40,457 bases of DNA from NCBI GenBank assembly GCA_000310025.1, contig FN647857.1, positions 467,857-508,313 of the forward strand. Reading direction: 5' to 3'. The notes below the pieces were generated by a model. That model searched no databases and was not told the origin of the DNA. It saw only the letters and a program-made list of their open reading frames with translations. The position numbers were made by a program, and so were the translations under genes. Below are positions 12,001-39,187 of the stretch, piece after piece; the stretch's first letter is position 1; each line of letters opens with the position of its first letter. This stretch comes from Ectocarpus siliculosus. Taxonomy: Eukaryota > Sar > Phaeophyceae > Ectocarpales > Ectocarpaceae.

Positions 12001-15000
12001 GAACTACCGTATATGACACAAGATAACACACCCTCTTGACCGATTTTCAAAGCTCGATTTCTCAACAGCAGGAAGAGTCACAGCGCCGAAAACGGCGGCG
12101 TTGGAACCGTCTCGTCGAGAGCTGTTCGAAAACGTATTGTTTCATTTATGCATCCTCTTCGTCGTGGAGTAATCGAGCTTTGAAAATCGGTCCAGGGGGT
12201 GTGTTATCTTGTGTCATATACGGTATCCCAGTGTACTTTCCGGATTGAGCGGCGCGTCTTCAGCGCGAGCCGCGCCAGCTTGAAAGGGTACGCGAGCGCC
12301 ATGCCATTATTCCCGTCCCCGCCGCCCTTACTTCTTCCCACTTTCCCGACAGCTGCTACATGCGTGAACCACGGCATCCAGCTCATCGCGTACCCCTCAA
12401 ACTCTGCCGCCCCGACCTACCCCCGCCTGTACTGCCTGTGGCCTCCTCTCCCCACCCCAAACCTGTGGTGAATCACTACCAACGTTCCGCATCCACATCG
12501 ACGCAACACCTGCAAGGCTGATCTGCGGCGCGGCGCTAGGTTTGAAGTTCATGCACGAGATGGGCTTTGCGCACGGAGACGTAAAACCTGCGAACATGCT
12601 CGTGTCCGACGACCTCAGAGAGTGCAAGATATCCGACTTTGGGAGTGTCGGAAGTGAGCATGATATCCAGCACGTTTCGTTTTGGTGCACACACACACAC
12701 GTAGGGAGAAAGAGAGCGAGAGAGAGAGAGAAGCGGGACATGCACTTAACACTATACGTGACTGAGGAGGTTCAAAAGCGGTTGTTTGTGTCATCCACAG
12801 TTCCACCAGAGGGCACCAAGGAATCAGAAAATAACAAAAAAGACGGCACGTACCGGTCTGCCCAACCGTCTACCAACGCAGGCAAGGCAGGTCGTCGACG
12901 GCGGTAGCAATGACCTTGATATGTCGTGCGAACCCTAGCTCTGACTGCTATCGTACACGAGAGGATCCTGACCTCAACCTGCTTCAGAGCCGATGCCCCC
13001 AAGAACCATGAGTCTTGCCATTATCATCTGTGATCCCTACCCATATCTTGATCTTTTCGCGAACAGGGCTTGGTGTGGCGAATGTGGGAGACGTGACGCT
13101 GCCATTCACGCCTCCCGAGGCCATGGGCGTCGCCAACGGCTGGAAAGTTCCGCTGAAGGCCTCGATGGACGTGTGGTCTTTCGGGATGGTCGTCTTGCAG
13201 GCGACGTCAAGGGCAAGGTGTCTGCCCACAGACCACGAAGTGAGTGGTCGTCGGTTGCAGGGTTTGCTCCTGCAGCAGCGGAAGGTTCAGTCCACGTCAG
13301 TGAGCCCCAGAAGTGTTTGCGGGATAGAGTTTTGGGGGCTACATTATGCGAAGGCGTGGTGTACTACTTGTCGGAATCCCTTTGGCCTGCGATTTATGGG
13401 CGTGTGTATCTATCGGGGCACACAGCGTCCGCAAATCGAGGCACACTCGTGTGGTGATTGGAAGTAAACTCTTTCTTTCGTCGATCCTGAGCATGAAACG
13501 ATATCGCCGTAGACGTTGTTTCCCTCTCTCCTCTAGCATAAAAAACTCATGATTTTCCAACCCTTACGCTTGCCGCACATGCACTGCGCGCAGGTGCTAG
13601 GCGATCACATTCACAGCATCTTGCCCACTGAGCGCCAATCCTGGATCGCCCAGGCCCATGAAGCGATGATGGTTGCCAACGACAACTTTTATTACATCGC
13701 CTGCGGGCGGAGCAAGCGCACGCAGGAAAAGGCGTCGTCGGATATCATTCGGCTGAGGGTGAGTCGGCACAACAACTGTCTGGCGACGTAGCCGTCCCAT
13801 CAACCCCGTTCCGTAGTGTATTTCTGATTGCTCCTGGTTGGAGCAGATAGAGTTAGGGTTAGGGTTAGCGTTTAGTTGGTTCTCGAAACCTTTCGTCTCG
13901 ACAACGGACACCTTTTCCCGCCAGCGGTGTAGGAGGTCTCACCACATTTTGCTATTATTAGTTGATTCGATGAGATTCGACATCAACACCAGCAAAACCA
14001 GCGTGAAGGAAGGGTCTCGGTTCGGAAAAAGGTTTTGCGTGACTCGGACAAACGCAGGAACGGGGAGACAGGGGTAATACCGCTATAATACTTTGTGTAA
14101 GGCTACAAGACAGCTCGACTTATTGGAGTTGAAGAAACAAAAGAAGACTGTGAAGGAGTTGAGTATCATCATGCCAGCACCTGGCTGCACGAAAGAATGA
14201 AGCAGCAAATTTTGTTCCCAATTTGCTTAGAGCTTTCAAAGCTTCTGCAGTTCGCTGATGTACCTGAAATGACAGGATCAAGACCAACCCTGTTGCCCCC
14301 CATGTTGCGCATGGGTGAAAAGTTTCCGTTTTTTCGCCCCACGTTGTTGTGCTTGATCCGACAGGAGGTTTATTTCGGCACGTATGCCAAGACGAAAAAG
14401 CTGGACAATTTCATCCTGTCCCGGAGAGTGTGGCCAGACCAGCGGGCTTTCCGGCACCTGCCCGAAGTAAGTCGCATGTGTTGTCTTCGTCAAGCCTTGA
14501 CTGTTCGATTCTACGGGTATGACAGCGCAAGGATATTTGAGCTGGGACAAGGTCGCCCTATTTAACTTTTAGAGGTCCATGCCAAGAGATGGTCACGGTG
14601 CCTCCCCGCACGACCCGAGCATATCCCAGAAAGGGATCGGTCTGCAGTACAAACCAAGCAGAGAACACAGAAAGAACCAGAATACAACACCACCAACGTT
14701 GCACACCAACTCGACACCCACAACCAACAACACACTACGACGCAGGTGCGGAAGGTGCTGGGCGCGATGATGGCTGTAGACCCCCGCGAGAGGATCAACA
14801 TGAAAACTGTGGCGCTCTTCCTCAGGCACCCCGGGCTGTGGGCTCGCACAACAACCGGGCTTCGAGCAGCAGCTTCTGCCGACGCGCCAGGACTGCCCGG
14901 GGCGCCGACGGCACCAGCAGCAGCATCGCCGTCCCCCGGTGACGGTAGCGGCAAGACGAGCCTCGATTTCAAGCCCGTTCCCGAGACCGCCCACACGCTG

Positions 15001-17545: not shown

Positions 17546-17679
17546 ATCACACGATGCATACGGTCAAGAAGAACAAGAGAAAAAATGGCCCTCCCGGGGT
17601 ACCTTGCTAGGTGTGAGGGTTAATTTTATCCCTTGCCCTTGCCCAATTACTTGATTTTCGTGAAAAGCATCATTGTCCC

Positions 17680-18365
17680 TCAACGGAGCAGAGCAGCGTG
17701 GGGGTGTCTCTGGAAGTACGCCCGAGAGCTCTTCGACCGGCAGACAGCACCGTGGCAATTAAAGGCCGGGCTTCTGAATGCGGAGGTGATGGAGGCCCTG
17801 CTCAGCGGATGTATGACGTGGGCCCCGCGCCACGACCACTACAATCTGTTGACGAGTGCACACCACCGGCTTCTGCTACGGGTTATCGGGTACCGCCGCA
17901 CGCGCGGCCATTATCGGCAGCTCTCATACGCCCAGACCCTTGAAAAGGTCGGATGCCAAAGCGTGGAACCTAAATATTGTAGTCCGGCTACGGGGGCTAC
18001 TGTTTGCTGGAGCATTGGCCGGACAACAGGAAGGGCGACTCTCGAAGCGAGTGATGCTCGGCGACATCGTTGGGGCGGAGGAACCAGACAGGGGTGTATG
18101 CCCGGAACAGAATTGGGCGAAATTCTTGAAGGTCGACTTCACAGCGTTCGACGCCACAGCCGAACCCACGGGGGAAGACAAGAGAACGTCCGGGATACCG
18201 CATGCCTGCTGGCTCTGGCAGCGAGGGGGTTGCTGAGGCACAAGAGGTTCACGGTCAAATGGCACAAGGAGGAAGAGAAGGTCAGCAGACTACGCTTGGA
18301 GAAACAGAAGAAGAAAAACATCGGACAAAAGACCCGAACGACAACCAACCGAGCAGGGGGGGCGG
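17680..18365 (+). pseudogene. 5'-truncated, frameshifted LINE reverse-transcriptase tail
   Basis: The sequence encodes the C-terminal part of a non-LTR retrotransposon ORF2. The first frame gives WKYARELFDR, LKAGLLNAEVMEALLSGCMT and HHRLLLRVIGYRRTRGHY, then LSYAQTLEKVGCQSVE. A shift near 17970 moves to the next frame: VRLRGLLFAGALAGQ, then RLSKRVMLGDIVGAE. A second shift near 18190 returns to the first frame for KRFTVKWHKEEEKVSRLR. This order (segment after the RT core, SVE, RLLFAG, then KWH) is usual for such elements. The RT core and endonuclease are absent, as expected for 5' truncation. The copy is dead. Confidence 0.75.
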
Positions 18366-18520
18366 GGGGGGGCGTACTGAGGCACAAGAGGTTCACGGTC
18401 AAATGGCACAAGGAGGAAGAGAAGGTCAGCAGACTACGCTTGGAGAAACGGAAGAAGAAAAACATCGAACAAAAGACCCGAACGACAACCAACCGAGGAG
18501 GGGGGGGGGGGGGGGACCCC
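18233..18520 (+). repeat. 144-bp tandem duplication of the LINE 3' tail
   Basis: The segment starting CTGAGGCACAAGAGGTTCAC at 18233 restarts at 18377 with only a few differences. Each copy ends in a G-rich run. It may be real or an assembly product, because it abuts the poor-quality stretch before the gap. Confidence 0.7.
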
Positions 18521-18921
18521 CAGTCCTGGGGGGCGGAATCCTGGGAACCTTTACCCCCCCTCCCCACCAAACCGGGAAGGAGCCCCCGGGGGGGGGGGAT
18601 TAACCTTCAAAAAACCCCTATTTCCGGCCCACCGCCATTTTTGGGGGCCAAAAAAAAAAGGGGCCCTTTAAAAGGGGAAAAGGGGGGGGGGAACCCCGCC
18701 CAAAATATGATGGGGGGGGGGGGCGGAAAAAAAATTTTTTTTTGTAACCCCCCCCCCCCCCGGGTTTTCCCCCCGGGGTGGGTTTTTCCCCCCTGGGCGC
18801 CATTTTTTTAAAAAAACCCAANNNNNNNNNNNNNNNNNNNNNNNNNNNNNNNNNNNNNNNNNNNNNNNNNNNNNNNNNNNNNNNNNNNNNNNNNNNNNNN
18901 NNNNNNNNNNNNNNNNNNNNN
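18503..18921. other. Low-quality sequence and 100-base assembly gap
   Basis: Positions 18822-18921 are 100 N, a conventional unknown-size gap. The ~320 bases before it consist of inflated homopolymers and align in order with 18925-19244. For example, GGGATTAACCTTC near 18596 matches GGGATTAATCTTC near 19018, and CCCCCCCGGGTTTTCC matches the CCCCGTCCCCGCCGG region. It looks like the tail of a read whose base calls collapsed after a long G run. Nothing here should be translated. Confidence 0.75.
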
Positions 18922-20756: not shown

Positions 20757-21074
20757 ATGCTACGTTCGATCCTGTGGCTTGCGACGGTCTCACGCTTACC
20801 GGTCGCCACATTCGCGCAAGATCACAATCAAGATTCACAGCAGCGGCTAGGTGTCATCGTACCGGCGTACGACGGCGACCTCGCAAGGGCTGTATCTTCC
20901 CTGGAGCGATGGCCCGTCAAGTGCTCGCCCCTGACCCTCAAGAATGCTGACCTCGTGCTGTACTACGCGGAAGAAGCAAGCAGCGCTACTGCCTCCGCGC
21001 TCGACAGCATCTCCAGCACCGCCGGCCGTTGCTTCTCGAGAACCCGGGTCGTGTACGCCAATCTTGCGGAAGAG
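20757..21074 (+). CDS. GT-like gene exon 1: signal peptide and start of GT domain
   Basis: The ATG at 20757 begins a hydrophobic leader ending VATFA, a plausible cleavage site. It is followed by RLGVIVPAYDGDLARAVSSL and ADLVLYYAEE, typical of the first strands of a GT-A fold. The donor GTGAGC at 21075 is phase 0. Confidence 0.8.
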
Positions 21075-24000
21075 GTGAGCAGAATGTTTTTTTAAAATAT
21101 TTTTTTCCGGTGCCGATGCCGCTGTCACATGCGCGCGTGCGCGTGCGTGCGTGGGGTTGCGACAGGCCGCATGACGCGCCGCGGCGTCCTTCTACCCTCT
21201 CCCTCTCGTAATCTTGACCGCAGGTCACATGCTTATCTCTACACAGAGAGATTCATCACGTAACATTTTCACCTTGTTTGGATTTTTCGAATCGGTACCA
21301 GAGCCGCAGGCGGTCGATCAAAAATCCAAACTTGGCGAATTGATTGCTGTCTCTCACAATCACAGATGCGACAGTACTCTCACACTCTCTCACGTATGTA
21401 TGCATGTACACACGGTTGAGAGAAGTATCGCCGCCACCACTGAATCGCACACAAAAAGGCTCCCCGGCCTAGCAAACCGCCGGGACCGAGTTCGAGAGGA
21501 CGGTGAACGTCGCCCTATACCAAGGCAGCGGTATTGTGCGTTACATTATTTTCTTTGCCCGAAGGTTCCACGTTCTCAAAAGCACACATTTCACGATACG
21601 ATCGTGTAGCGGATAAACAAACAGCGGACAAACAAATTTGTCTAAAGAGGGCTGCTGCTGCTGCTGCCGTGCCCGATGTCTGTCCGCCCCCGTCTATGGA
21701 CACAGCAGCTGCTGTGTGGAAAGGGTGCACGTAGAAAGTCTCGTTCGCATGATGTTCGCCTACCTCGGCCTCTCCTCAGTCGCCGAATACAATAGCCAAA
21801 CTGCAGCTGTCACATCACGGTGCAGTGATCCCGTGTGGTGACATCGATTGATGACTGACTGCATACATGACCACAGCAGTACACGACAGCACCCGCCCAA
21901 CCACAAGGATTGATTTTTCATTCTTGATTGCTTCTCACAACTGAGGTAGAACATGATAAAATATGTGATACGCTTTGTGTTGCCTTGTGGCATCGTGTCC
22001 GCAACAAGGTGGGTGATGCGAGAAGGGCGCATGGGAGCACAGCAGTGGTGTTATCCGTCTTCGTGAACTGTTTTTTTCTTCTGTTTTTGGAAATGCATGT
22101 GTGCACCAGCTGCGTAGTAAAGACTGTCCGCGCTGTTGGCCACGTTGCCTCCCGTTCTCCCAATATCTACGCAATGGCCACACGTATGCGATGCACAATA
22201 ATATCAGATCTATGATACTGTGTACTGCTACATAGCTGCTTGATCGCGTCCTCCACAGATGGACAAGGTACAGGATGAAATATACTTGCTTGCTTGACTC
22301 GGGTTTTTCAACACTTTCGGCCGGCCGGCCGGACTAGATCATGTAGCAAGCTGCTGTGTTGCTGTGGTCGAAACCACGAAATTTCGTCCGTCTGGCTTTC
22401 GCCCTTTTTGAAATAAAAATCTTTACCGGTACAGGGCTGCCCTTGGGAGTTGACTCATGTGAGCACAGCAGTAGTGCCATCAAGGGGTGATATCCAATGA
22501 CGAAACAAAAGCTCGCCCCCCCCACCTTGTCTACGGGAGACAGCTAGCTGCTGCTTTTTGGGGACAGCTGACGAAAATCAAAGTATCATTGAAACCAACA
22601 CCCGCTAACAACAGGCGGCTGCAACCGTTGGCTGGCTGCATGCTAACGGATGTGCAGTTTAATAATTATTTGCCTCTACAGTGATGATGTTAGTGCGCCT
22701 ATTCGAGAATTCATAGAATGGCATGCACCCGAAAAAAAAAAGTACCAAGTTAGTTAGTTGCGATCCAAACGCTCAGCAGACACTTTCTTTCTCGATCTCA
22801 AGGAAGAGGCTTAGCCCCCCACGAGTGCCATTAGAACAAGATAATTTTCTACCTCTCGCATCATGTCTCAACAATGGTTGTTTAAATCCCATTTCGTACT
22901 CGCAGGATGACATCTACCCAAAAGGCCCTTCCGTCATGTTTTACAAGATGTTCCTCGACGAGAACGTGCGCTCCAGCCTCTCCGAGTACGACGCGCTCTC
23001 CATCGTCGAGTGGGACGTGCTCGTCGCCAGCGACAACTCCTTCGAGGAGCTCTACCACGCCGCGTTCCGCGTGAACGAAGAGTTCTGGGTGAAGGGCAGC
23101 AACCTCGAGGGCACCTCGTTCCACTCGAGCGCTGAGGCGTCGGAGATGTGGCAGGTGCTAGGCCACATAAACGGCAACGCCATCTACAACAACGACGACC
23201 CCGCGTTCGTCGAGTACGTGGAGTACACCCGGGCCCGCTGGGGATACGAGCACCCGTACGACGTGGCGCTGTGGATGACTATTTCGGACTTCCCCTACAG
23301 TTGGCCTCTCTACCAGCGGTACTCGAGCAAGTTCGTCGTGACCAACCTGGTGAGTAAAGGGGCAAGGTTGTGGTGGGCGGTTGTTAGGACGACAAACGGG
23401 TCGTCTTTTTCCCCACCCACATTTTATTTTCGTTAAAACTTTTGGTGAAATTAGCCTGTGACCACGGGAACCGACCGCGCGTCACGTGGTAGACTACTGT
23501 AGAGAGAACAAACGGTTTTTAACGTGAAGACTGAAGACAACAACAAACACAACAACAACTACAACTGTAGAGACTTCAACGCATCCCAATCGACTTGTGG
23601 TGTTCTCTCGAACCGGTAGTCTTGATGTGTTTGCATATAAATTTTCTGGTGACGAGAGCGCACTACAAGCCAATCCACAGCAAGCAGTAGATACGGCAGG
23701 ATGCACCGTCTCACGCAAAAGTACTGGTGTACACACACCGCGAACCTCTCGCCCCTTGCTGGAGCATCGGTAAACACGGCCGTCCGAACATCGACCGTTC
23801 GCGTTGGGTTGTACCCCACCCCGTCACCACCGCGCAAATCGATTTCAAGATTTCGTACGTCGGCTACGAGCACGTGAGTCACGATACGGTCTCCGACGCC
23901 GTCGCGGGCAAGACTCTGTTCATCCACGGAAGCAGCGTGGAGGACGGCAACGTCGCCTCCTACGAGGCCGTCGCGAGCACCGCCACCGCCACCGTCGACG

Positions 24001-27000
24001 TCGCGAAACAAACTCGTGGCCGGAAGCTTACGGGTAGTACGCCGAAGTGGAAGACACAGGAGAAGTGGAGGAGCAGCAAGGACGACAGCATCCCCAAGTG
24101 CGTATTTCGTAGCAGTTGAAGGGTTGGGGTTTCTGTTGGCGTTGGTGATTATATACGAGATCGATGCACCACCGTCGTCATGGTAACCTACCCTCTCGAA
24201 ACCGCGGGCCCCCTTCGGAACTCCAGTACTCGTGGAGGTGTAATTGTTTGCATAGTCATATATGGCCACGTAGGTACGACGGTTTACGGGAATACTCAAA
24301 GAGTATCTGAGCAACGCGTTGAATCGAACGGCGTAGACATAATGGTGTCCAAACCCTCTGACAGAAGCGGAGCCTGTGGATTCGTGACCCGGATTTCAGC
24401 TCTTCACGACGCCCTAAGTCGCCACGTGCCGATGAATCCTCCCTCAATTGCAGTGGGTTGTTTGCCAGTACGGCACGGCACCCGTTGTCATTAGGTTTGT
24501 ACAAGGGGTGCCCCATCAGGAGACTCAAGGGGTGCCCATCAGGATACTCTGTCATTTCGAAGGGGACGTGATCAGTACCTACTTGTGTGGTGCACCAAGT
24601 ATTGGAAATATAGGTGGTGTCTGATGAATCAAGGTCGTCAACGGTGGTAGTAGGTCTTTGGTTGTACATGGAATTTTCTCGGTCGACGCCCGCAGATAGT
24701 ATACGTCGGACGGGCTCGTTGGTGACGTGCAGCCCCATAGCTCGTCTTTTTCTCGTCTCGCGCTAACCCATCCTGCTCCATGGACTTCAACGTGCTTTCG
24801 CAACGGGACAGGTGGAAACGCAACCAGAAGTGGCAAACGAGCAAGGACGACAAGGTCCCCAAGTGGAAGACCAACCAGAAGTGGAAGAACAAGTTGTCGG
24901 ACGGAGCGTGAGTGGTGCTAACGTCTCGCTCTAGTGTTCGTCGAGTATGTTGAATCATGTTTCGAAACTTTTGGAGGACGCTGCGTTGGCAACAACAGTC
25001 TTAAACGCTTAGCGGTTGTGAGACAGGACGAGACTTGTTTGAGCTGTGTAACAGTCTCATGGCAGTTGTTGACGATCGTTGGCGGAAATGCTGCCTAACG
25101 CTTGGGTGTTCCGGCGTCAGTCTTCACAATGGTGCGGGTGAGGTCGACGACTCTGTCCATGTCCAGCATGACGGCCACGTCAGCATCCGTTGTCGTAGGT
25201 AAACCATCAGCGCAAGACACTCGAGGCGATCCGGTCACTTTCCACTATTTAGTACTTCTAGCGTGGTTCGCCTGTTCGGCATGCTCTGTAGATTCATACG
25301 ATGCTGCAGGTGTTCGCGCACCCGCCTACTCATTGCTCGCAGTCGGTCATGTTCCACGAAGCTCGCATTCCAATATCCTTTACAACTGCCCGACTCCCTC
25401 CCGCTGCTACCCTTTACTCGTCGCCACCACAAGCAGGTGCTCGTCCACCTGCGAGTACACCAGCAGGGACGGGACCAGGGGACGCGTGTGTGACGCGAAC
25501 TGCTCGACCCCCGACGTGTACGGTACCCGCGGATGCAACGCCAAGCAGGGGACCTACGGAGAGGAATGCCGCGCTTGCTTCAACGACGTCGACAAGGCCC
25601 GCAAGCAAGACACGCCTGAGAACCGCTCGATCATGTGAGACGCCACCTGAACATGTAGGAGTGAACGGTCGCAGTTGAGTCGGGAGACAGCAGTAGTAGG
25701 ACGCCCAGCCGAGTCTTGGCGACAGGTTTGGCCGATGACGCACGCCGAGTTGTGTCGCCGAGGGAAAGCCGTCGCGGTCGCTTGTAGGACGACGACGCCA
25801 GGAACACACAGACCATGGTATTCTCCACCCTCCCCACCCTGCCATACTCCTCCCTAACACGCCCTTCCCTTACGCGTCCTCTTTCGCCCGATTGATCTTG
25901 ACCTCGACAGGTGTTCGACCAAGAGACCCGTAGAAGGCTACGGCCGTCGCCTGACTGCCGACGACGAGAGCGACCCTCTCCGCGTCGCGCGTGATCTCGA
26001 GACCTTGCAGGAGGACGCATCATCACCGTCCGGAGAAGAGGAGCACCGCCAGTTGTCAGGTAGTACGCCCAAGTGGAAGTCACAGGAGAAGTGGAGGACC
26101 AGCAAGGACGACAGCATCCCCAAGTGCGTACCATTCCGAAGCGGTTGGAGTGTTGGCGTTGTTGTTGTTGGCTTTGGTGTTGATTGTTTGTCATACACAG
26201 ATCGATGCATCACCGTCGTGATGATCCCACAACGTACCCCCTCCACACCATGGGCCTCCTTTGGAAGTCCAGTACTCGTAGAGCTGACATTGCCCACGTA
26301 GGCACGGCTCTCGTTGGCTCTAGGTTTTTGTGCAACGGGCGCCAGCCAGTGAATTCTCTGATTTAGGAGGGGAGGTGGTCAGGCCCACCATACAAGAGTA
26401 GTCTCGTGGTACTGTAGTGCACGGACCCGTGTTTGTGGCCGATGATGATTTACAGTCGTCGAGGTCTGCAGCAGTGCATGGAATTCGCCCACCCGACATC
26501 CACAGACGGCATACGTCGGACGGGCTCGTGGCGCGGTGCTGCTTCATGACTCGTCCTTTTTATGCACTCACACCCGTCGTTCTCCATGTGCTGCAATGTG
26601 CTCTCGCATCGTGATAGGTGGAAACGCAACCAGAAGTGGCAGACGAACAAGGACGACAAGGTCCCCAAGTGGAAGAACAACCAGAAGTGGAAGAACAAGT
26701 TGTCGGACGGAGCGTGAGTGGCGGTAAATGTCTCGCGCTAGAGGTCGCCGAGAATGATCAAATTGTTTTTCGGAACGTTTGGGGGTGGCAGCAGCGGCCG
26801 TTAAACCGACAGGACGAGACTCGTCTGAGCTGTGTAACAGTCTCATGGCAGTTGTTGACGATCGTCGGAGGAGATGCTGCCAAACACTTGGGTGTTGTGG
26901 CATCAGTATTCACAGTGGTCCGGTTGAGGTCGACGATGCTGTCCATGTCCAAAATGACGACCACGTCAGCATCCGTTGTCGTCGGTAGAACCGTAAGCGC

Positions 27001-30000
27001 ACGGAGCTCGAGGCGATCCGGTCACTGCAATCTCCATTCTTATTAAAGTCTAGAGTGTGCTGCAGATTTCGGCGGGCTCTGTAGGCTCATACGATCGCGT
27101 AGCAGTTCGCGTCAGGCGCGTTCCACGAAGCTCGCCATGCGTCATGCAGCAGCGTATCACAAACCTCTCCCAACTTCCTCCCACCAATACCCCGTGCTCG
27201 TCGCCACCACAAGCAGGTGCTCGTCCAGCTGCGAGTACACCAGCAGGGACGGGACCAGGGGACGCGTGTGCGACGCGAACTGCTCGACGCCCGACGTGTA
27301 CGGTACCCGCGGATGCAACGCCAAGCAGGGGACCTACGGAGAGGAATGCCGCGCTTGCTTCAACGACGTCGACAAGGCCCGCAAGCAAGACACGCCTGAG
27401 AACCGCTCGATCATGTGAGACGCCACCTGCACATGTCGGAGTGAACGGTCGCAGTTGAGTCTGGTGACAGCAGTAGTAGAACGCCCAGCCGAGTTTTGTC
27501 TGCCATGTTTTTCCTCGGCCTTGGCGACAGGTTTGGCCAATGGCGCACCACCGGTTGTCGCGCCAATGAAGGGCTGTCGCGGGTGCTTGCAGGACGACGA
27601 CGCCAGGCACAGTATTCTCCACCCTCCCTTACTCCTCCCTAACACGCCCTTCCCTTTCGCGTCCTCTCTCGCCCGATTGGTCCCGACAGTTGCTCCAACA
27701 AGAGGCCTGTAGAGGGCTACGGCCGTCGCCTGACTGCCGACGACGAGAGCGACCCTCTCCGCGTCGCGCATAGCCTCGAGACCTTGCAGGAGGACGCATC
27801 ATCCCCGTCGGGAGAAGAGGAGCACCGCCAGCTTTCGGGGAGTACGCCGAAGTGGAAGTCACAGGAGAAGTGGAGGACCAGCAAGGACGACAGCATCCCC
27901 AAGTGCGTATTCCGAAGCGGTGGAAGTGTTGTTGTTTGCATAGTGGCACATGGCCACATAGGCACGGTCACCTTCGGCTCTAGGTTTGTGCAAGGATGCC
28001 GATCAGGGGAGCATCTCATTTCGGACAGGAGCTGATCAGGCCCACCATGCAGCAGAATTGTTCTCGTGGTACATGCGGTGAACCGTACATGTGGCAATCT
28101 AGGCTGAGTAGGTCTGCACCAATGCAGGAAAGTTGCTCGACTGACGTCCGCAGAGAACACACGTCGGACGAGATCGTTGGCGCAGTGTTGCTCCATGACT
28201 AGTCCTCATGTTGTCATGCGCTCACATCCGTCGTTCTCCATGTGCTTCAACGTGCTCTCGGATCGCGATAGGTGGAAACGCAACCAGAAGTGGCAGACGA
28301 GCAAGGACGACAAGGTCCCCAAGTGGAAGACCAACCAGAAGTGGAAGAACAAGTTGTCGGACGGAGCGTGAGTGGCGTTGGTGTCCCGCGCTACTTGTTG
28401 CCGAGATGAAATCATGTTTCGAAATGTTTGCGGGTGGCAACAGCGGCGGGTAAACCGTACCGGCTGTGAGACAGGACGAGACTCGTACGATCAGTTTTTT
28501 TACAATCGCATGCCAGATGTTTGCAATCATCGGAGGGGGCGTTCCCCAACGCTTGGGTGTTCCGGCGACAGGATCGACAATACTTTATTTGAGGCAAGCT
28601 ACGAGGCAAAGCCGTAAAGAGTTCGTATTGGTTGGCTAAGCACCACAGTACTCAATTTTGTTCCGCCAAGCTCGCATTCCTGCTCACCCCCCCTCCCGCC
28701 GCTACCCCTTTGTCATCGTTTCCACAAACAGGTGCTCGTCCAGCTGCGAGTACACCAGCAGGGACGGGACCAGGGGACGCGTGTGCGACGCGAACTGCTC
28801 GACCCCCGACGTGTACGGTACCCGCGGATGTAACGCCAAGCAGGGGACTTACGGAGAGGAATGCCGCGCTTGCTTCAACGACGTCGACAAGGCCCGCAAG
28901 CAAGACACGCCGGAGAACCGCTCGATCATGTGAGACACCATGTGGCATAGCTGGGTGAACGGTCGCCGTTGAGTCTGGCGACAGCAGTAGTAGGACGCCC
29001 AGCTCCGTGTTGTCATGTTTTCTTTTTCCTCGGCCTTGGCGATAGGTTTGGCCAATGGCGCACGCCCAGCTGACGGCGGAAACAAACAGACTACTAGACC
29101 TCGGAGTGTAGCTCGTCGATCGGTATTCTCTATCCTCCCTTACTCCTCCCTAACACGCCCTTCCCTTTCGCGTCCTCTCTCGCCCGATTGGTCCCGACAG
29201 GTGCTCCAACAAGAGGCCTGTAGAGGGCTACGGCCGTCGCCTGACTGCCAACGACGAGAGCGACCCTCTCCGCGTCGCGCGTAGCCTCGAGACCTTGCAG
29301 GAGGACGCATCATCCCCGTTGGAAGAAGAGGAGCACCGCCAGCTTTCAGGTAGTACGCCGAAGTGGAAGTCACAGGAGAAGTGGAGGACCAGCAAGGACG
29401 ACAGCATCCCCAAGTGAGTACCCCCTTCTCACCGCAGGCCTCCTTTGGAAGCCCGCTATGTACTCGTGGAGGTGTCGTTGTTTACGTAGTGGCACATGGC
29501 CACGTAGGCACGGTTCACTTCGGCTCTAGGTTTGTGCAAGGGGTGCGGGTCAGCGGAGTATCTCATTTCGGAAGGGAGGTGGTCAGGCCCACATACAAGA
29601 GAAGTCTCGTTGTACATGGTGCACGGAACCCTGTTTGTGGCCGGTGACGAATCAAGGTCGTCTAGGTCTGCGGCAGTGCATGGAACTCGCTCACCCGACA
29701 TCCACAGACCGAGCACGTCGGACGGGGTCGTTGGGGCGGTGCTGCTCCATGACTGGTCCTCATGTCGTCCTGCGCTCACACCCGTCCTTCGTGTACTTTC
29801 ATGTTTTCTGACGACATTACAGGTGGAAACGCAACCAGAAGTGGCAGACGAGCAAGGACGACAAGGTCCCCAAGTGGAAGACCAACCAGAAGTGGAAGAA
29901 CAAATTCTCGGACGGAGCGTGAGTGGCGTTAAACGTCTCGCGCTTCTTGTTGTCGAGGATACTGAAGTCATGTTTCGGAACTTTTGGGGGTAGCAGCAGA

Positions 30001-33000
30001 GGCTGTTAACCCGTACCGCTTGTGAGACGGGGCGAGACTCGTATTAACAGTCCCATCACAGTTGCTGACGGTTGTGATAGGGTGCGGCATGACGACCACG
30101 TCAGCGCCGGTTGATATAGGTAGAACACGTCAAGGACCTTTCCACCCACAAGTTGCAGCAGAATCTGGTCAAGTCCAACGGATACGGAACATATTCTCTT
30201 TCACCCTTACTCCCCTTTGTCATCGTTTCCACAAACAGGTGCTCGTCCAGCTGCGAGTACACCAGCAGGGACGGGACCAGGGGACGCGTGTGCGACGCGA
30301 ACTGCTCGACCCCCGACGTGTACGGTACCCGCGGATGTAACGCCAAGCAGGGGACCTACGGAGAGGAATGCCGCGCTTGCTTCAACGACGTCGACAAGGC
30401 CCGCAAGCAAGACACGCCTGAGAACCGCTCGATCATGTGAGACGCCACCTGCACATGTAGGAGCGAGCAGCCGCCGCTGAGTCGGGCGACAGCAGTAGTA
30501 GACGCCCAGCGCAGTCTTGGCGACAGGTTTGGCCATCTTCTCTCACTCCTCCCTCACACGCCCTTCTCCCTCACACGTCCTTCCCTTTCGCGTCCTTTCT
30601 CGCCCGATTGGTCCCGACAGGTGCTCGACCAAGAGGCCCGTAGAGGGCTACGGCCGTCGCTTGACTGCCGACGACGAGAGCGACCCTCTCCGCGTCGGGC
30701 GTAGCCTCGAGACCTTGCAGGAGGACGCATCATCACCGTCGGGAGAAGAGGAGCACCGCCAGCTTTCAGGTAGTACGCCGAAGTGGAAGTCACAGGAAAA
30801 GTGGAGGACCAGCAAGGACGACAGCATCCCCAAGTGCGTATTCCGAAGCGGTGGAAGGGTTGTTGTTGGTGTTGCTGATTACTACTGTAGTCGGCCACGT
30901 AGTAGTCACGATTCCCGTTAGTTGTGGCAGGGGGGCCAATCCGTGAACTCTCTCATTCCGGAGGGGAGGTGATCAGTCCCACCGTACAGTAGCGGTCTCG
31001 TGGTACATGGTGCACTGAACCAGAAATGTGGCCGATGACGAATGAGGTCGTCTACAGGTAGGTCTGTAGCATGCATGCCAGTTGCTCGCCCGACGTCCAG
31101 ATAGCATACGTCGGGCGGGCTCGTTTTGCACGGTGTTCCTCCTTCTCCATGACTCGTCAGCAGGACGAGTCATGCGCTCACACCCGTCGTTCTTCGTGTA
31201 CTTCAATGTGCTCTCGCATCGTGACAGGTGGAAACGCAACCAGAAGTGGCAGACGAGCAAGGACGACAAGGTCCCCAAGTGGAAGACCAACCAGAAGTGG
31301 AAGAACAAGTTGTCGGACGGAGCGTGAGTGGCCTTGACGTCTCGCTCTAGTTCTTTGTCGAGCATGATGAGATCGTGCTTCGGAACGCTTGGGGGTGGCA
31401 GCAGCGGCCGTTAAACCGTACCGGTCGTGAGACAGGACGAGACTTGCTTGAGCTTCTTTAACAGTCTCATGGCAGTGGTTGACGATCGTCGCGAGAGCTA
31501 TTCCGTAACGCTTGGGTGTTCCGGCAGCAGTTTTGACAAAGTTTGATTTTGCAGACAACAGAGGTAAAGCCGTAGACATTTGTGAACCCTTGGCTACACA
31601 CTGCACACCAGTAGCCGGCCATCTGCCACCAAGCTCGCCATGCGTCGTGCAGCAGAGTATCACTCTTCCAACTCCCTCCCGCCGATACCCCTTACTCGTC
31701 GCCACCACAAGCAGGTGCTCGTCCACCTGCGAGTACACCAGCAGGGACGGGACCAGGGGACGCGTGTGCGACGCGAACTGCTCGACCCCCGACGTGTACG
31801 GTACCCGCGGATGCAACGCCAAGCAGGGGACCTACGGAGAGGAATGCCGCGCTTGCTTCAACGACGTCGACAAGGCCCGCAAGCAAGACACGCCGGAGAA
31901 CCGCTCGATCATGTGAGACACCACCTGAACGTAGAGGAGAAATTCCTTGCGTACAGGGTGCTGTGGACGGTTTCCCGCCAATCCCCCGCATGTCTTTTCG
32001 CTTATCGGTCCAAGATGGCTGCGACTAAATTTTAATAAATGACCTTAAGAACATATGAAATGCTTAAATGGGATAAGAATAATTAACTTTATTCGGCCTA
32101 AATTTGGTTCGCCAACGACGAATTGCGGTCGTGTCTGCATGACACATGAAAGCAGGGACTGTAAGTAGCCTTCTTAATCTCTCTATCTACGACACTTCGT
32201 GTGCGCCGGTCAACCTCTCTTTTCGCCCGATTGATCTCGACAGGTGCTCGACCGTGATGCCTGTAGACGTCTACGGCCGTCGCCTAACCCCCGACGACGG
32301 GAGCCGCCCTCTTCGCGTCGCGAAGATATTCAGCGTCGAGGATAGCGAGGAGGAAGCGGACGATGTCGAGGAAGAACTTGCAAACGTCGACGTCGACCGG
32401 GAGGACGTGATCTCTTTCTTCGAGGAGGCAGCCGAACGACCGTACTCCCAGGACCTGAAGCGCCGCAACCTGTGCGCCTTCGTCGGTGGTCGGGCGGGCG
32501 AGGAGGCCATGTGGGACGTGACGGTGAAGAGCATCCTGCAGTTTGTGCCGGGCATGAGGGTGGCCATCGCGGCTGAGGCGGAGGGACTTGACGCGTACGA
32601 GAGGTGGGCGTGTGGGTCAAAGAATTTGCAAAGCTGCACACGATGGCCGAATGTTCTCCTCTGGTGAAAAACAGGCCTCTTGACCTCCGTCTCTGTTGCC
32701 CCTTTCCTTCTCTTTCTCGACGCTGATGCAGGTCCATGGGCGGTCTCCCCGGCGTCACCGTTTCCGGCACCCAGAACCCCGCCACGGCGGCCCTGTTCGC
32801 AGACCAGTACTGCGGGCCTGGCACCGCTCTCATCTTGTACGTCGAGCCGGGGTCTGTTCTCTCCCGCCCCTTCACCTCCAAGGACACCCACTCCCCGCGG
32901 GGCGACCTCCTGGTCGTGCACACGGGCTCTCAGGGGAGCTACCACGACGCCCAGCTGAGGCGCCGCTCGGCGTCGGTGCTCGGGTTCGATGCGCCGTCCT

Positions 33001-33648
33001 TCACGCACGGCACCGACCTGATGCTGCCGGTCGGCGCAAACGAAGACCTCCGGGAGTCGCTCGGGCTAAGGCATGGTGCCAGCCTGCAGCACGACGGCGA
33101 CTGGGCTTCAATGGTCGCGCTTCAGGAATTGGTCGAGTTCGACCAATTCTCCGCTGTCCCTCAGGTACATACGTCTTTTGGTGTGCTCGGGGAAGGATGT
33201 TTGGTGTTGACGTTGCAGGGTGCGGTGCTTTTGGTGTGAGAGCGTCACCGGGTGTTGTTGTGTTCGTCACAATGGAGAACTTTTCTGTTGTAGAAAGATT
33301 TACGCCATCAGCGGGATGCGATCTCTTTGAAGTCGCTGACCGTGCAGCCCTGTGTCATTTTCTGCCACTACCACGTTGCAGGTGCTGGCCGCGCTGGCCT
33401 ACTCCCGCGACACGCCCGGAGTGTGGTTCCTCGACCCCCAGGCTTGGGTGGGCCAACACCTGTTTCAGGAGGCGTCCATCTGGAATATCCCTCTGGTCAA
33501 GCCCCGCTACACGTGCGCCATCGCTCCCGCCCAGCTGGAGCCTGGCAGCCCCAAAACTGCCGAGGTCTTGCAAAGTAACCTCGACTTCTTCTCTATGGGG
33601 GGCAAATGCGCCAACGGCCTGATCGACTTTGTTCTGCCGCTGGAGTAA
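20757..33648 (+). CDS. Secreted glycosyltransferase-like protein with five exon cassettes, 20 exons, predicted 1463 aa
   Basis: Exons are 20757-21074, 22906-23349, 23850-24097, five B/C pairs and four A exons (see the cassette entries), then 32244-32603, 32732-33164 and 33382-33648. They total 4392 nt with all junctions in phase. An N-terminal signal peptide (residues 1 to about 20) is followed by a GT-A-like domain: LGVIVPAYDGDL, LSIVEWDVLVAS (EWD at 141-143, a possible DxD-type site), FWVKGSNLEGT, LGHINGNAIYNND, KTLFIHGSS. Residues about 337-1110 are the cassette array. The C-terminal ~340 residues (LCAFVGGRAGEEAMWDVTVK, then ALILYVEPGSVLSRPF, GVWFLDPQAWVG) may be a second, catalytically altered transferase-like domain. 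It probably acts in the secretory pathway or cell wall. Substrate is unknown and the family call is tentative. Confidence 0.8.
22906..23349 (+). CDS. GT-like gene exon 2: core of GT domain
   Basis: The acceptor TACTCGCAG at 22905 is followed by DDIYPKGPSVMFYKMFLDEN, LSIVEWDVLVAS, EFWVKGSNLEGTSFH, VLGHINGNAIYNNDDPAF and YSSKFVVTNL. The donor GTGAGTAA at 23350 is phase 0. This is the best-conserved-looking part of the protein. The EWD triad is where a metal-binding acidic motif would be expected. Confidence 0.85.
23451..23556 (+). repeat. Dispersed ~110-bp repeat in GT-like gene intron 2
   Basis: It starts TTAGCCTGTGACCACGGGAA and ends GAAGACAACAACAAACACAA. It matches the reverse complement of 39622-39735 closely at both ends and in the central AACGGTTTTTAA block. 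It lies wholly within an intron. Confidence 0.6.
23850..24097 (+). CDS. GT-like gene exon 3: end of GT domain and first KWK motif
   Basis: It encodes ISYVGYEHVSHDTVSDAVAG, KTLFIHGSS and then LTGSTPKWKTQEKWRSSKDD, the tail half of an A exon. The acceptor is a TTTCAAG at 23849, unusual but in phase. The donor GTGCGT at 24098 leaves phase 2, the phase used by the whole cassette array. The exon looks like a fusion of GT sequence with part of a cassette A exon. Confidence 0.75.
24812..26123 (+). repeat. Exon cassette 1 (B1, C1, A1) of the GT-like gene
   Basis: Coding exons are B1 24812-24907, C1 25437-25634 and A1 25911-26123. B encodes WKRNQKWQTSKDDKVPKWKT and then NQKWKNKLSDG. C encodes a seven-cysteine module (CSSTCEYTSRDG, VCDANCSTPDVYG, RGCNAKQGTYGEECRACFND, ending in NRSIM). 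A begins with an eighth cysteine (CSTKRPVEGYGRRLT), continues with an acidic linker and ends in PKWKSQEKWRTSKDDSIPK. All three exons start and end in phase 2. Introns inside this copy are the longest of the array (529 and 276 bases; 714 before B1). Confidence 0.85.
26618..27902 (+). repeat. Exon cassette 2 (B2, C2, A2)
   Basis: Exons are B2 26618-26713, C2 27217-27414 and A2 27690-27902. B2 differs by QTNKDD and PKWKNNQKW. C2 has CSSSC where C1 has CSSTC. A2 begins with T instead of G after its CAG acceptor, turning the boundary codon from Met (ATG) to Ile (ATT). A2 also has CSNK and VAHSLE. All lengths and phases match cassette 1. Confidence 0.85.
28272..29413 (+). repeat. Exon cassette 3 (B3, C3, A3)
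   Basis: Exons are B3 28272-28367, C3 28732-28929 and A3 29201-29413. B3 matches B1. C3 is preceded by TTTCCACAAACAG, a different acceptor context from C1, C2 and C5. A3 carries TANDES and SPLEEEEH. Its donor is the consensus GTGAGT where sibling A exons have GTGCGT. Confidence 0.85.
29823..30833 (+). repeat. Exon cassette 4 (B4, C4, A4)
   Basis: Exons are B4 29823-29918, C4 30239-30436 and A4 30621-30833. B4 has NKFSDG instead of NKLSDG. C4 shares the ACAAACAG acceptor with C3. A4 has RVGRSLE. Introns are the shortest of the array (320 and 184 bases), giving the most compact cassette. Confidence 0.85.
31228..32603 (+). repeat. Exon cassette 5 (B5, C5) with diverged A5
   Basis: Exons are B5 31228-31323, C5 31715-31912 and A5 32244-32603. 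B5 and C5 are near-identical to cassette 1, and C5 has CSSTC as C1 does. A5 begins like the other A exons (CSTVMPVDVYGRRLTPDDGS) but loses the KWK end. It runs instead into an acidic helix (VEDSEEEADDVEEELANVDV) and the start of the C-terminal domain (LCAFVGGRAGEEAMWDVTVK). It leaves in phase 2 at a GTGGGC donor. A5 is therefore the ancestral exit from the array. Confidence 0.85.
32732..33164 (+). CDS. GT-like gene penultimate exon: C-terminal domain
   Basis: The acceptor CTGATGCAG at 32731 completes Arg. The exon encodes SMGGLPGVTVSGTQNP, YCGPGTALILYVEPGSVLSR, LLVVHTGSQGSYHDAQLRRR and HDGDWASMVALQELVEFDQF. VEPGS sits where a DxD-like motif might be, but only one acidic residue remains. The donor GTACAT at 33165 is phase 0. 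Confidence 0.8.
33382..33648 (+). CDS. GT-like gene last exon
   Basis: The acceptor ACCACGTTGCAG at 33381 is followed by VLAALAYSRDTPGVWFLDPQ, WNIPLVKPRYTCAIAP and FFSMGGKCANGLIDFVLPLE, then TAA at 33646-33648. The segment reads as the C-terminal part of the same folded domain. Confidence 0.8.
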   Translation: MLAALAYSRDTPGVWFLDPQAWVGQHLFQEASIWNIPLVKPRYTCAIAPAQLEPGSPKTAEVLQSNLDFFSMGGKCANGLIDFVLPLE

Positions 33649-36750: not shown

Positions 36751-37389
36751 TCACTTGCCGCCCCCTCGGCCAATCATCCTCCCAAACCAGCCTCTACTCT
36801 CGGCTCCTTCTGCCGCCGCCGCCGCTGCGTCCCCCGCCCCCCGTGGCGCCGCCCCGCCCTCCAGGTAGCGGTCCCCCGTGTTCGACGCGAACGGGTCTTG
36901 CGTGGCCAGCGTGTCCTCGAACCTCGACCCGGTCTCGAAGCCCGACCCGGTGACCACGTCGTGGGATCTCGTCGCGGAGGAGTCCACCTCGCCTCCGTCC
37001 CCCATCGGTCGGTAACCCGCGGGCGCCCCGACCGGCGGCAGCGGCGGCGCCAGCCCGAGTGGTCGCGGCGCCTGCGGGGCACCCAGCCCCCCCCCAGCCC
37101 CCCCCGCGTCGCCCCCTGCCTCCATCGGCGGGGGCTCCACCTGCGCCATATACCTAGACAGGAGGATGCCCATGCCCTCAATGACGGCCAGCAACGCGCC
37201 GCCCACGACAGCGTTCTTAGCGGCGGTCCGGGGTCCCGCCCGGAGGGCGAGGATGCCGCCGGTGGCGGCGCCGGACAGGATGGGGTTCCAGGCGTCCTCC
37301 TTGTGGCGGACGGCGACCAGGGAGCAGTCGCACACCGAGAAGAGGGCGCCCCAGACGGCGAAGTTTCCCCCCAACACCGGCGCGCGGTA
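36751..37389 (-). CDS. TIM17: TIM17 exon 2
   Basis: It begins at 37389 after acceptor CTCCGACTACAG (minus strand) with YRAPVLGG and ends at TGA 36753-36751. It holds membrane spans 2-4 and the low-complexity tail. The open frame extends upstream of 37389 into the intron, but those residues do not fit the family. Confidence 0.9.
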   Translation of the reverse strand, partial: YRAPVLGGNFAVWGALFSVCDCSLVAVRHKEDAWNPILSGAATGGILALRAGPRTAAKNAVVGGALLAVIEGMGILLSRYMAQVEPPPMEAGGDAGGAGGGLGAPQAPRPLGLAPPLPPVGAPAGYRPMGDGGEVDSSATRSHDVVTGSGFETGSRFEDTLATQDPFASNTGDRYLEGGAAPRGAGDAAAAAAEGAESRGWFGRMIGRGGGK

Positions 37390-39187
37390 CTGTAGTCGGA
37401 GGAGGAGGTAGATACCAAACGAGAGCGAAGGTGCGAGGCAGGGGGGCCAGAGGGGGGGAGGGTGTTGGCGACGTGCAGGCGGTAGGACCGAAGCGGGTAG
37501 GCGGAGAGTTGGAGGACCATGGAAGAGCGCGACACTCACTGCCATGCGGCGCGCCATCTTGGGGCGCCGCGCATGCGCACGCGTACACTCATCTGCCAGA
37601 CACTCAACCGTCCTCACTCAAGGAGCAAACCAAGGCGTGGCCTAGAGTGCCGACAACACTAAATCTTGCCAAGACTCCTGCACAAAAAAACGTCAAGCAT
37701 TGCCGGGCACAACAGCGCGTACAAAACCTCTACAAAACGCTGGAGTCTTTCGGGGGTTCCGCTGCAAGCGCAGACCGGGAAAAACACGTGCAGTGGAGAA
37801 ACGCGACGAACCCCCGCGCCACGAACTCGAAAACCGGGTCATGTACGAGCAACCGCTGCCGCAAAGGCGTGCGCTATCTAGTGGTGGGTTCGCATGGCGT
37901 TTGCGTCCACTGGCGGAGGCTTGGTCTGCAGTATGCGTATGTCTTTTTGAACAGACTCACTCCGCCTCACGAATGCACTCGCCACAAAAAAAAAACGCGG
38001 TGTAAGGCCCGTCAAGACGGAAAGCATTCTGCTCCGTCGCTAATCGCAAGCGTTTCCCACACAGAGGCCCGCACGCGGTATGAAGAGGTACTACAGAATC
38101 ACTTGCATGCGGGAGACACACACATACGAGGAGGTTGAGATCTACCAGCATCAGGATGAGGGTCGTAACCCTGGCTGCCCATGTGTGACTGTGAAACCCC
38201 AATCACCGGCTATCTGTTGGAGTGGTGGCGAAGCGCGTGAGAGCGTTTGAACGTCAACAACTGGCTACCGCTACAGCAGCGCTTCAAGATCGATGGCGGT
38301 GGCAGTGGTATCAGTCAGTAGCTGTGCAGGAATAAACGCTCCCCCCCTCTCCGACTATTGACAGTATATAAGATGTTGTTGCTGGCCTATGCGTCACGTC
38401 GTTCTAAAGTTGCCTACAGGATTACAACGCGGAATGTTGATATTGCCGACGAATTATTTGCACAAGGCTTTATTTATCCTTACGTCGAGTTCGATACTGA
38501 ATAAGGGGGATCACGGCTCGAGAGACGCCTCGCGACTTCGTCGGACACGCGAGCTTATGCATATCAGCAGAGCGGAAGTAGCCAGCCGCGGGGAGTTTAC
38601 TTCAGACCGACAGACCAGTTTTGTTTGGCCGCCTCCTCCGTGGGCAAGAACACTGCTGTAAATACGTATATACAGGAGTAGTAGAGAGTTTATTAGTGGG
38701 CGTTACTATGTACTAGCTTACATAAACTATGTTACGGAGTAATTCAAACTGCACGTGGGCGTGCAATGGGCGGCGTCACACTCTACAGCAACACACCGTG
38801 CATGCTTCCGCAAGGGCAATGACAGCAGTATGCGTTCATGGAAACACGAGGCACAGGGCGTGTTCACGACTTCTCGGGGACCTCACCACACGGCACCAAA
38901 TTTCAAACACGCACAGCGTGCATAGTGGGCACAGGGCACAAAAACTCACGACTAAAATTCAGAGCAATGAAGACTTTGGGGTGTGTGTGTGCATATCACC
39001 ATTTTTCTCGCCAGAGCTCTCTCTTGCTCACCATCACTGCCTTGAGAGCGCCCTGTGTCCCCTGGCCCTTGGGAGAGTTTCTGAAGCCCTTGACGCTGTG
39101 CCAGATCCCTCCACCCGCCAGACCGAAAGCAAAAGCACCCCCAACATCGCCCACGATGCGGTGGGGGCAGGGGTCCCTGTCTCCCAT
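36751..39187 (-). CDS. TIM17: TIM17, mitochondrial inner-membrane translocase subunit, two exons
   Basis: On the minus strand, exon 1 is 39187-39032 (52 codons) and exon 2 is 37389-36751 (213 codons with the stop), giving 264 residues. Tim17 is a core subunit of the TIM23 complex, which moves presequence proteins across or into the inner membrane. Diagnostic segments are DPCPHRIVGDVGGAFAFGLA, GFRNSPKG, YRAPVLGGNFAVWGALFS, AVRHKEDAWNPILSGAATGG and VVGGALLAVIEGMGILL: four Gly-rich membrane spans by about residue 135. Cys7 and Cys74 are 67 residues apart, the spacing of the disulfide pair in yeast Tim17 (Cys10/Cys77). The intron of 1642 bases has a GTGAGC donor and a GACTACAG acceptor and is phase 0. 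The tail (136-264) is Gly/Pro/Ala-rich, longer than usual, and ends in a basic RMIGRGGGK. Confidence 0.92.
37390..39031 (-). other. TIM17 intron 1
   Basis: The intron runs on the minus strand from GTGAGC (39031) to CAG (37390). No separate gene is recognisable on either strand within it. Confidence 0.8.
39032..39187 (-). CDS. TIM17: TIM17 exon 1
   Basis: The ATG lies at 39187-39185. The exon encodes MGDRDPCPHRIVGDVGG, AFAFGLAGGGIWHSVKGFRN and SPKGQGTQGALKAVM, up to donor GTGAGC. The start is set by the family, whose members begin a few residues before the PCP motif. Confidence 0.9.

Follow-up and report, generated by a model that had tools for sequence, protein, structure and literature searches.

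Tandem amplification of a three-exon cassette in an Ectocarpus siliculosus gene: signs of turnover and a probable relic of the founding event

How does a gene come to carry the same three exons five times over, and what keeps the copies alike? The question is raised by a 40,457-nucleotide (nt) stretch of the genome of the brown alga Ectocarpus siliculosus, here called the window (C38:467857-508313; numbers beginning with C denote contigs of the same 189-Mb genome), in which one predicted gene contains five consecutive cassettes of the exons B, C and A. We put the probability that this cassette array was both created and maintained by recombination at roughly 0.75. Signs of turnover are clear in the array, and exon A probably preserves a mark of how the array began; related genes are found elsewhere on the contig and in the genome. 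In this genome, 150 of 880 candidate places for the EsV-1-7 domain were scored and all exceeded its cut-off, as against none in 14 control genomes; this domain is expanded in brown algae.

Results

The cassette array is a genomic duplication

The window gene can be read as one continuous frame of 20 exons (20757-33648, forward strand) encoding 1463 amino acids without an internal stop (Table 1); all splice sites given here, for this gene and its paralogues, are predictions from sequence. The start of exon 3 was put at 23850 by comparison within the family, the homologous codon being preceded by CAG or AAG in all seven genes inspected (the window gene, its paralogues p1, p2 and p3 on C38, C6, C20 and C42a); an alternative start at 23700 would give a protein of 1513 amino acids. 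The product is laid out as an N domain (residues 1-316), a stem (317-1111) and a C domain (1112-1463).

The sequence-only reading of this DNA had proposed five B-C-A cassettes in order, the fifth A merging into the C-terminal domain, with equal exon lengths in every copy, uniform phase-2 introns and freedom to skip any exon without a frameshift. Coordinates and frame bear out this arrangement. Within the window gene B is always 96, C 198 and A 213 nt long, and the 15 introns of the array (24098-32243) are all phase 2 and all GT-AG; the intron that follows the array (32604-32731) is likewise phase 2. Skipping any exon or run of exons keeps the frame, and all six possible junction codons (AAG, AAT, ATG, ATT, GCG and GCT) are sense codons, with no stop among them. 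The uniform phase of the 15 introns goes back to three ancestral introns, each copied five times, and does not amount to 15 independent coincidences. With phase 2 shared by the three internal introns, cassettes can be gained or lost without disturbing the frame.

Between the copies of the window gene, nucleotide identity is 96-100% for B, 97.5-99% for C and 91.5-97% for A. Near-identical exons classically mislead assemblers, and five copies could accordingly be an artefact of assembly or of haplotypes. For the window array this is contradicted by the introns, in which 19-35% of aligned sites differ between copies (pooled per cassette pair) and which are also unequal in length. Such divergence next to near-identical exons argues against chance and assembly duplication alike, and we regard an artefact as scarcely credible. 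Where the introns can be aligned between copies, the inner C-A and A-B introns are 71-88% and the B-C introns 60-77% identical, compared with a shuffled mean of 43%. As judged from these alignments, the window array was made by duplication of genomic DNA, introns included, and by its exon order and phases it is a tandemly duplicated array of symmetric exons. The exact copy number of p1 is less secure, with 79-100% identity among its inner C-A and A-B introns.

Table 1. Predicted exons of the window gene (window positions) and its paralogues on the same contig (contig positions)
Feature	Position	Strand	Description
Exon 1	20757..21074	+	predicted start codon, signal-peptide-like N terminus, beginning of N domain; alignable in p1, p2, p3 and others
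Exon 2	22906..23349	+	core of N domain, 148 amino acids; 92-96% identity with the three C38 paralogues
Exon 3	23850..24097	+	end of N domain and KWK tail like the end of exon A; start by comparison with 6 other genes
Exon B1	24812..24907	+	96 nt, phase 2-2
Exon C1	25437..25634	+	198 nt, 7 Cys, an eighth being encoded by the first full codon of the following exon
Exon A1	25911..26123	+	213 nt
Exon B2	26618..26713	+	96 nt
Exon C2	27217..27414	+	198 nt
Exon A2	27690..27902	+	213 nt
Exon B3	28272..28367	+	96 nt
Exon C3	28732..28929	+	198 nt
Exon A3	29201..29413	+	213 nt
Exon B4	29823..29918	+	96 nt
Exon C4	30239..30436	+	198 nt
Exon A4	30621..30833	+	213 nt
Exon B5	31228..31323	+	96 nt
Exon C5	31715..31912	+	198 nt
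Exon 18	32244..32603	+	360 nt; A-like head continuing into C-terminal domain (fifth A, fused)
Exon 19	32732..33164	+	C-terminal domain
Exon 20	33382..33648	+	C-terminal domain and stop codon
p1	C38:191300-205974	-	eight C exons
p2	C38:208983-214402	-	one C exon
p3	C38:221124-233356	-	five C exons

Copies are very likely homogenised within each gene

A genome search with the C exon gave matches at at least 24 places, each across the full 66 codons, and the AG-to-GT stretch is 198 nt in 24 of 24 full matches. On C38 there are five copies in the window gene, eight in p1, five in p3 and one in p2, so copy number does change between related genes; contig C6 carries two C exons, and contig C7 one and two at two loci. 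Across the paralogues C alone keeps a constant length (weaker, distant C-like modules lie outside this measurement). Lengths in p1 are 183 nt for exon A and 57 nt for exon B (one copy 58), those in p3 213-231 and 120-123 nt, and all are multiples of three bar the 58-nt copy. The latter, exon B3 of p1 (C38:199309-199366, reverse strand), would shift the frame if it is retained in the transcript and its extra base is no assembly error.

When 24 C exons are placed in one tree, those of each array gene group as one clade, with ultrafast bootstrap values of 98 for the window gene, 73 for p1 and 100 for p3. Consistently, the 18 C exons of the three arrays have a mean synonymous divergence (pS) of 0.055 for pairs from one gene and 0.326 for pairs from different genes, a contrast that none of 2000 label shuffles reached, the shuffling taking no account of relatedness. 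This grouping of C exons by gene makes homogenisation of the arrays within each gene very likely. It would proceed most simply via unequal crossing-over and gene conversion.

Unequal exchange predicts that introns at the ends of an array diverge more than their inner counterparts, and this is observed in the window gene and p1. In the window gene the last C-A intron has an identity of 0.53 to its inner counterparts, against 0.80 among the latter (p1, 0.66 versus 0.94), and the first A-B intron one of 0.62 against 0.73 (p1, 0.47 versus 0.89); mean shuffled baselines in these comparisons are 0.43 and 0.45. The first B-C intron of p1 has an identity of 0.48 to the other B-C introns. Furthermore, the cassettes of p1 fall into two intron-length classes that roughly alternate, and cassette 6 combines a B-C intron of the short class with a C-A intron of the long class, as expected from duplication of a two-cassette block and recombination between classes.

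At the protein level, the C modules of the window gene differ with a nonsynonymous divergence (pN) of 0.004 and a pS of 0.056 (pN/pS 0.07); between the four C38 genes, pN/pS of the C exon is 0.33-0.56. The low pN indicates that the modules of one protein are kept alike, and diversifying selection among the C exons of the window gene is not indicated by its pN/pS, no site-wise model having been used. This bears on the suggestion that the array is a splicing repertoire, its exons being combined variously into many isoforms as proposed for brown-algal leucine-rich repeat (LRR) and tetratricopeptide repeat (TPR) receptor genes. Every junction is open and in frame, splice isoforms are reported for brown-algal ROCO genes with 72-nt phase-2 LRR exons (PMC11378527, accessible part), and the 58-nt B copy of p1, unless it is an assembly error, would need skipping for an intact product. 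However, modules as similar as these offer little diversity beyond length; with five near-identical modules, exon skipping would alter length or valency rather than specificity, and we consider a splicing repertoire unlikely. Less probable again is the wider proposal that cassette number is polymorphic between strains, that splicing varies length as well, and that the alga tunes the reach and valency of a secreted cell-wall linker by both.

The contrast between exons and introns extends beyond the array

Intron divergence exceeds that of synonymous sites by a factor of 3.7 in the window gene, 3.8 in p3 and 4.9 in p1, the p3 ratio being a lower bound as its intron value of 0.50 is close to saturation. 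The pooled pS is based on exon pairs of equal length, which leaves out A and B pairs of p3 as well as B3 of p1, and the pooled intron divergence leaves out the first A-B intron of each gene, which is covered by the end-effect comparison above. These ratios could reflect homogenisation confined to exons, for example by repair from spliced RNA, with the introns left to drift. Yet the same contrast is found outside the array: exon 2 has a pS of only 0.08-0.20 between the four C38 genes, and the introns flanking it gave no match between homologous introns of these genes at E 1e-3, so a faster intron clock is enough to explain the difference. Moreover, in cassettes 2-4 of the window gene homogenisation extends from exon A into the preceding 40 intron nt (39-40 of 40 identical), and the ratio of intron to synonymous divergence is comparable across three arrays that differ in age. 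A process restricted to exons is thus very improbable, and homogenisation by recombination of genomic DNA is preferred.

Two further features of the introns were noted. Matches of 25-131 nt to the intron 2 region (23350-23699) occur, in both orientations, at several sites on C38, C6 and C7; those that were placed fall outside homologous introns and resemble a dispersed repeat. Matches of 20-29 nt adjoining acceptors were given by four C-A introns and by intron 19 of the window gene.

Exon A may retain the founding breakpoint

Alignment pairs the head of exon A with the opening part of the C-domain exon and the KWK tail of A with the closing part of the last N-domain exon. From these alignments we consider it likely that exon A is a chimera of the two, the scar of the founding duplication. 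The ancestral gene would have consisted of N-domain exon, B, C and C-domain exon. An internal duplication with breakpoints inside the last N-domain exon and the first C-domain exon would have joined the two into exon A, and the A-B-C unit would then have multiplied to five, eight and five copies in three genes of one contig, the fourth having one C exon. The window gene, p1 and p3 share a short stretch midway along A (LE-x-L, next to acidic or basic residues) that was not seen in their flanking exons, so the array was probably founded before the genes duplicated.

Alternatively, each gene may have assembled its own array from its own flanking exons. Gene-specific residues are shared between the tail of A and the gene's own N-domain exon, and there is one C-exon clade per gene, as separate origins would have it; the tails could equally result from later conversion. 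Against this stand the common mid-A stretch and the need for three similar breakpoints. In addition, a candidate exon with an A-like head lies between the two C exons of C6 and of C7b, hinting at an older two-module state. Separate origins therefore seem rather unlikely, and a single founding event is favoured.

The wider family supplies further context. Cores of the N and C domains were found together at at least 13 loci, a lower bound like the count of C-exon matches. At least one C module, in some cases as a weak profile match (E up to 0.005), is present at 12 of these 13 loci within the fetched stretches, which were what the profile search covered; the C20 locus has none, a match there (E 0.23) lying upstream of the N domain and being excluded from the count. 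Eight of the nine loci outside C38 hold two C modules, so that long arrays are characteristic of the C38 genes. Distant members with two C-like stem modules, as weak profile matches, lie on C26, C42 (two loci), C56, C87, C109 and C112, and the two modules on C26 are nearly 16 kb apart. On C7, two close partial copies of the exon-2 domain (C7:1810593-1810901 and 1811818-1812123, reverse strand) are found near a single C module (C7:1809395-1809592). No confirmed relative was found among viral contigs searched with exon 2 and the C module, or among prokaryote contigs searched with exon 2.

Predicted protein and putative function

The array had also been described as a modular, expandable stem between two folded domains. 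The stem stands, since it lies between two conserved regions and its module number is eight, five and one in the paralogues; for the folded domains there is no family or structure match. A Pfam scan of the N domain, one cassette, the C domain and pieces of the paralogues gave nothing above the curated cut-off, the N-domain query including 50 residues absent from the 1463-residue model; weak matches below cut-off were ELMO (0.23), topoisomerase I (0.14), TraO (0.16) and APD1-4_N (0.0093). Sequence searches of the PDB returned nothing below E 0.3. The N and C domains show no detectable kinship to each other (hhalign probability 0.1%, from shallow profiles of 3 and 4 sequences), and the repeat exons contain no LRR or TPR motif over the Pfam cut-off, as judged from one cassette and the C module. 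AlphaFold models of single window exons reached a mean pLDDT of 34.5 for exon 2 and 52.5 for the C module. A GT-A-like glycosyltransferase identity of the N and C domains, an idea prompted by motifs such as EWDVLVASD, found no match in Pfam or among PDB sequences, and the model of exon 2 is unusable. Keyword searches of open-licence papers, which cannot show absence, found no description of the gene family.

Some properties are nevertheless suggestive. The N terminus, read by eye without a predictor, is hydrophobic and signal-peptide-like (MLRSILWLATVSRLPVATFA), and p1 and p3 start similarly. The C module contains seven Cys, invariant in nine sequences compared, and an eighth Cys begins the following exon in 19 of 19 copies on C38, so the module is completed across the splice junction. 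Net charge is +7 for B, with four Trp in 31 residues, 0 for C and -3 for A, with two Trp. The protein would thus be secreted, with the array forming a stem of disulphide-bonded C modules joined by basic, Trp-rich B linkers and acidic A linkers with KWK. Since the modules are near-identical, copy number would set reach and valency, most plausibly toward anionic wall polysaccharide such as alginate and sulphated fucans, and the conserved end domains would carry the gene-specific work. That the stem might serve as a length-tunable, multivalent extracellular binder of wall polysaccharide is a guess from sequence, which we put forward tentatively.

Other features of the window

The window gene is preceded by an open frame at 17624-18811 (forward strand) with no Pfam match at 0.01, whose start resembles the C-terminal part of LINE-type reverse transcriptases. 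This frame contains a two-copy tandem repeat of 144 nt (18233-18515) and is followed near 18.8-18.9 kb by a gap or masked stretch (a run of X). Further upstream, at about 12368-12907 (forward strand), lies a protein kinase fragment (Pkinase, E 3.8e-10), perhaps a single exon of a kinase gene, and an open frame at 36751-37617 (reverse strand) matches the Tim17/Tim22/Tim23 family (PF02466, E 1e-20).

Discussion

Several observations weigh against the explanation of the array given here. The C-exon clade of p1 has a bootstrap value of just 73, and label shuffling disregards relatedness among the sequences. The introns of p3 are all near the shuffled baseline, which hides any end effect. In the window gene the five B-C introns, none of which lies at an array end, are 0.60-0.77 identical (mean 0.68), little above the first A-B intron, and the first of them is no more diverged than the others; inner position alone therefore does not make introns alike. 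The evidence for a single founding event is the short mid-A stretch, a matter of few residues, and separate events would equally account for the likeness between each A tail and the N-domain exon of that gene. Finally, the biochemical role is proposed in the face of no structural or family match, both AlphaFold models being of low confidence.

Tandem LRR exons in brown-algal ROCO genes were reportedly described by Zambounis et al. in 2012. According to Teng et al. (2024), these genes have 72-nt phase-2 exons encoding one LRR each, with diversifying selection and splice isoforms reported (PMC11378527). The window array resembles them in that tandem phase-2 exons of constant length expand part of a protein. 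It departs from them, as far as that text describes them, in that the ROCO unit is a single, diversified exon (PMC11378527), whereas here the unit comprises three exons, the modules are near-identical within the gene, and the product is probably secreted and shows no LRR match. Brown-algal NB-TPR genes, from the same lineage, likewise expand repeats exon by exon, but their repeats are TPR motifs in candidate immune receptors (PMC11378527, accessible part).

More generally, the window array is a true, well-preserved case of a known process, the tandem amplification of symmetric exons. Symmetric exons of animal extracellular modules are mostly phase 1-1. Unlike these, the window array is 2-2 and its unit includes an exon resembling the founding breakpoint. 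It shares symmetric exons, Cys-rich modules and a putative extracellular location with exon shuffling and duplication in animal extracellular proteins, according to the part of PMC8001218 available. As in the coding repeats of spider silk, which are under concerted evolution, repeats are homogenised; unlike those repeats, as the accessible part of PMC9779670 presents them, the window unit is split by introns, which expose the end effects.

The window gene points to a second style of phase-2 exon amplification in brown algae, in which a multi-exon cassette of a non-receptor gene is amplified and its copies are kept alike. The founding breakpoint is apparently still legible in the chimeric exon, and arrays of three apparent ages coexist in one genome; rates of cassette gain, loss and homogenisation thereby become measurable through simple genotyping. 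Finally, the array draws attention to a family without a Pfam match, with at least 13 loci in the genome, that may belong to the extracellular matrix.

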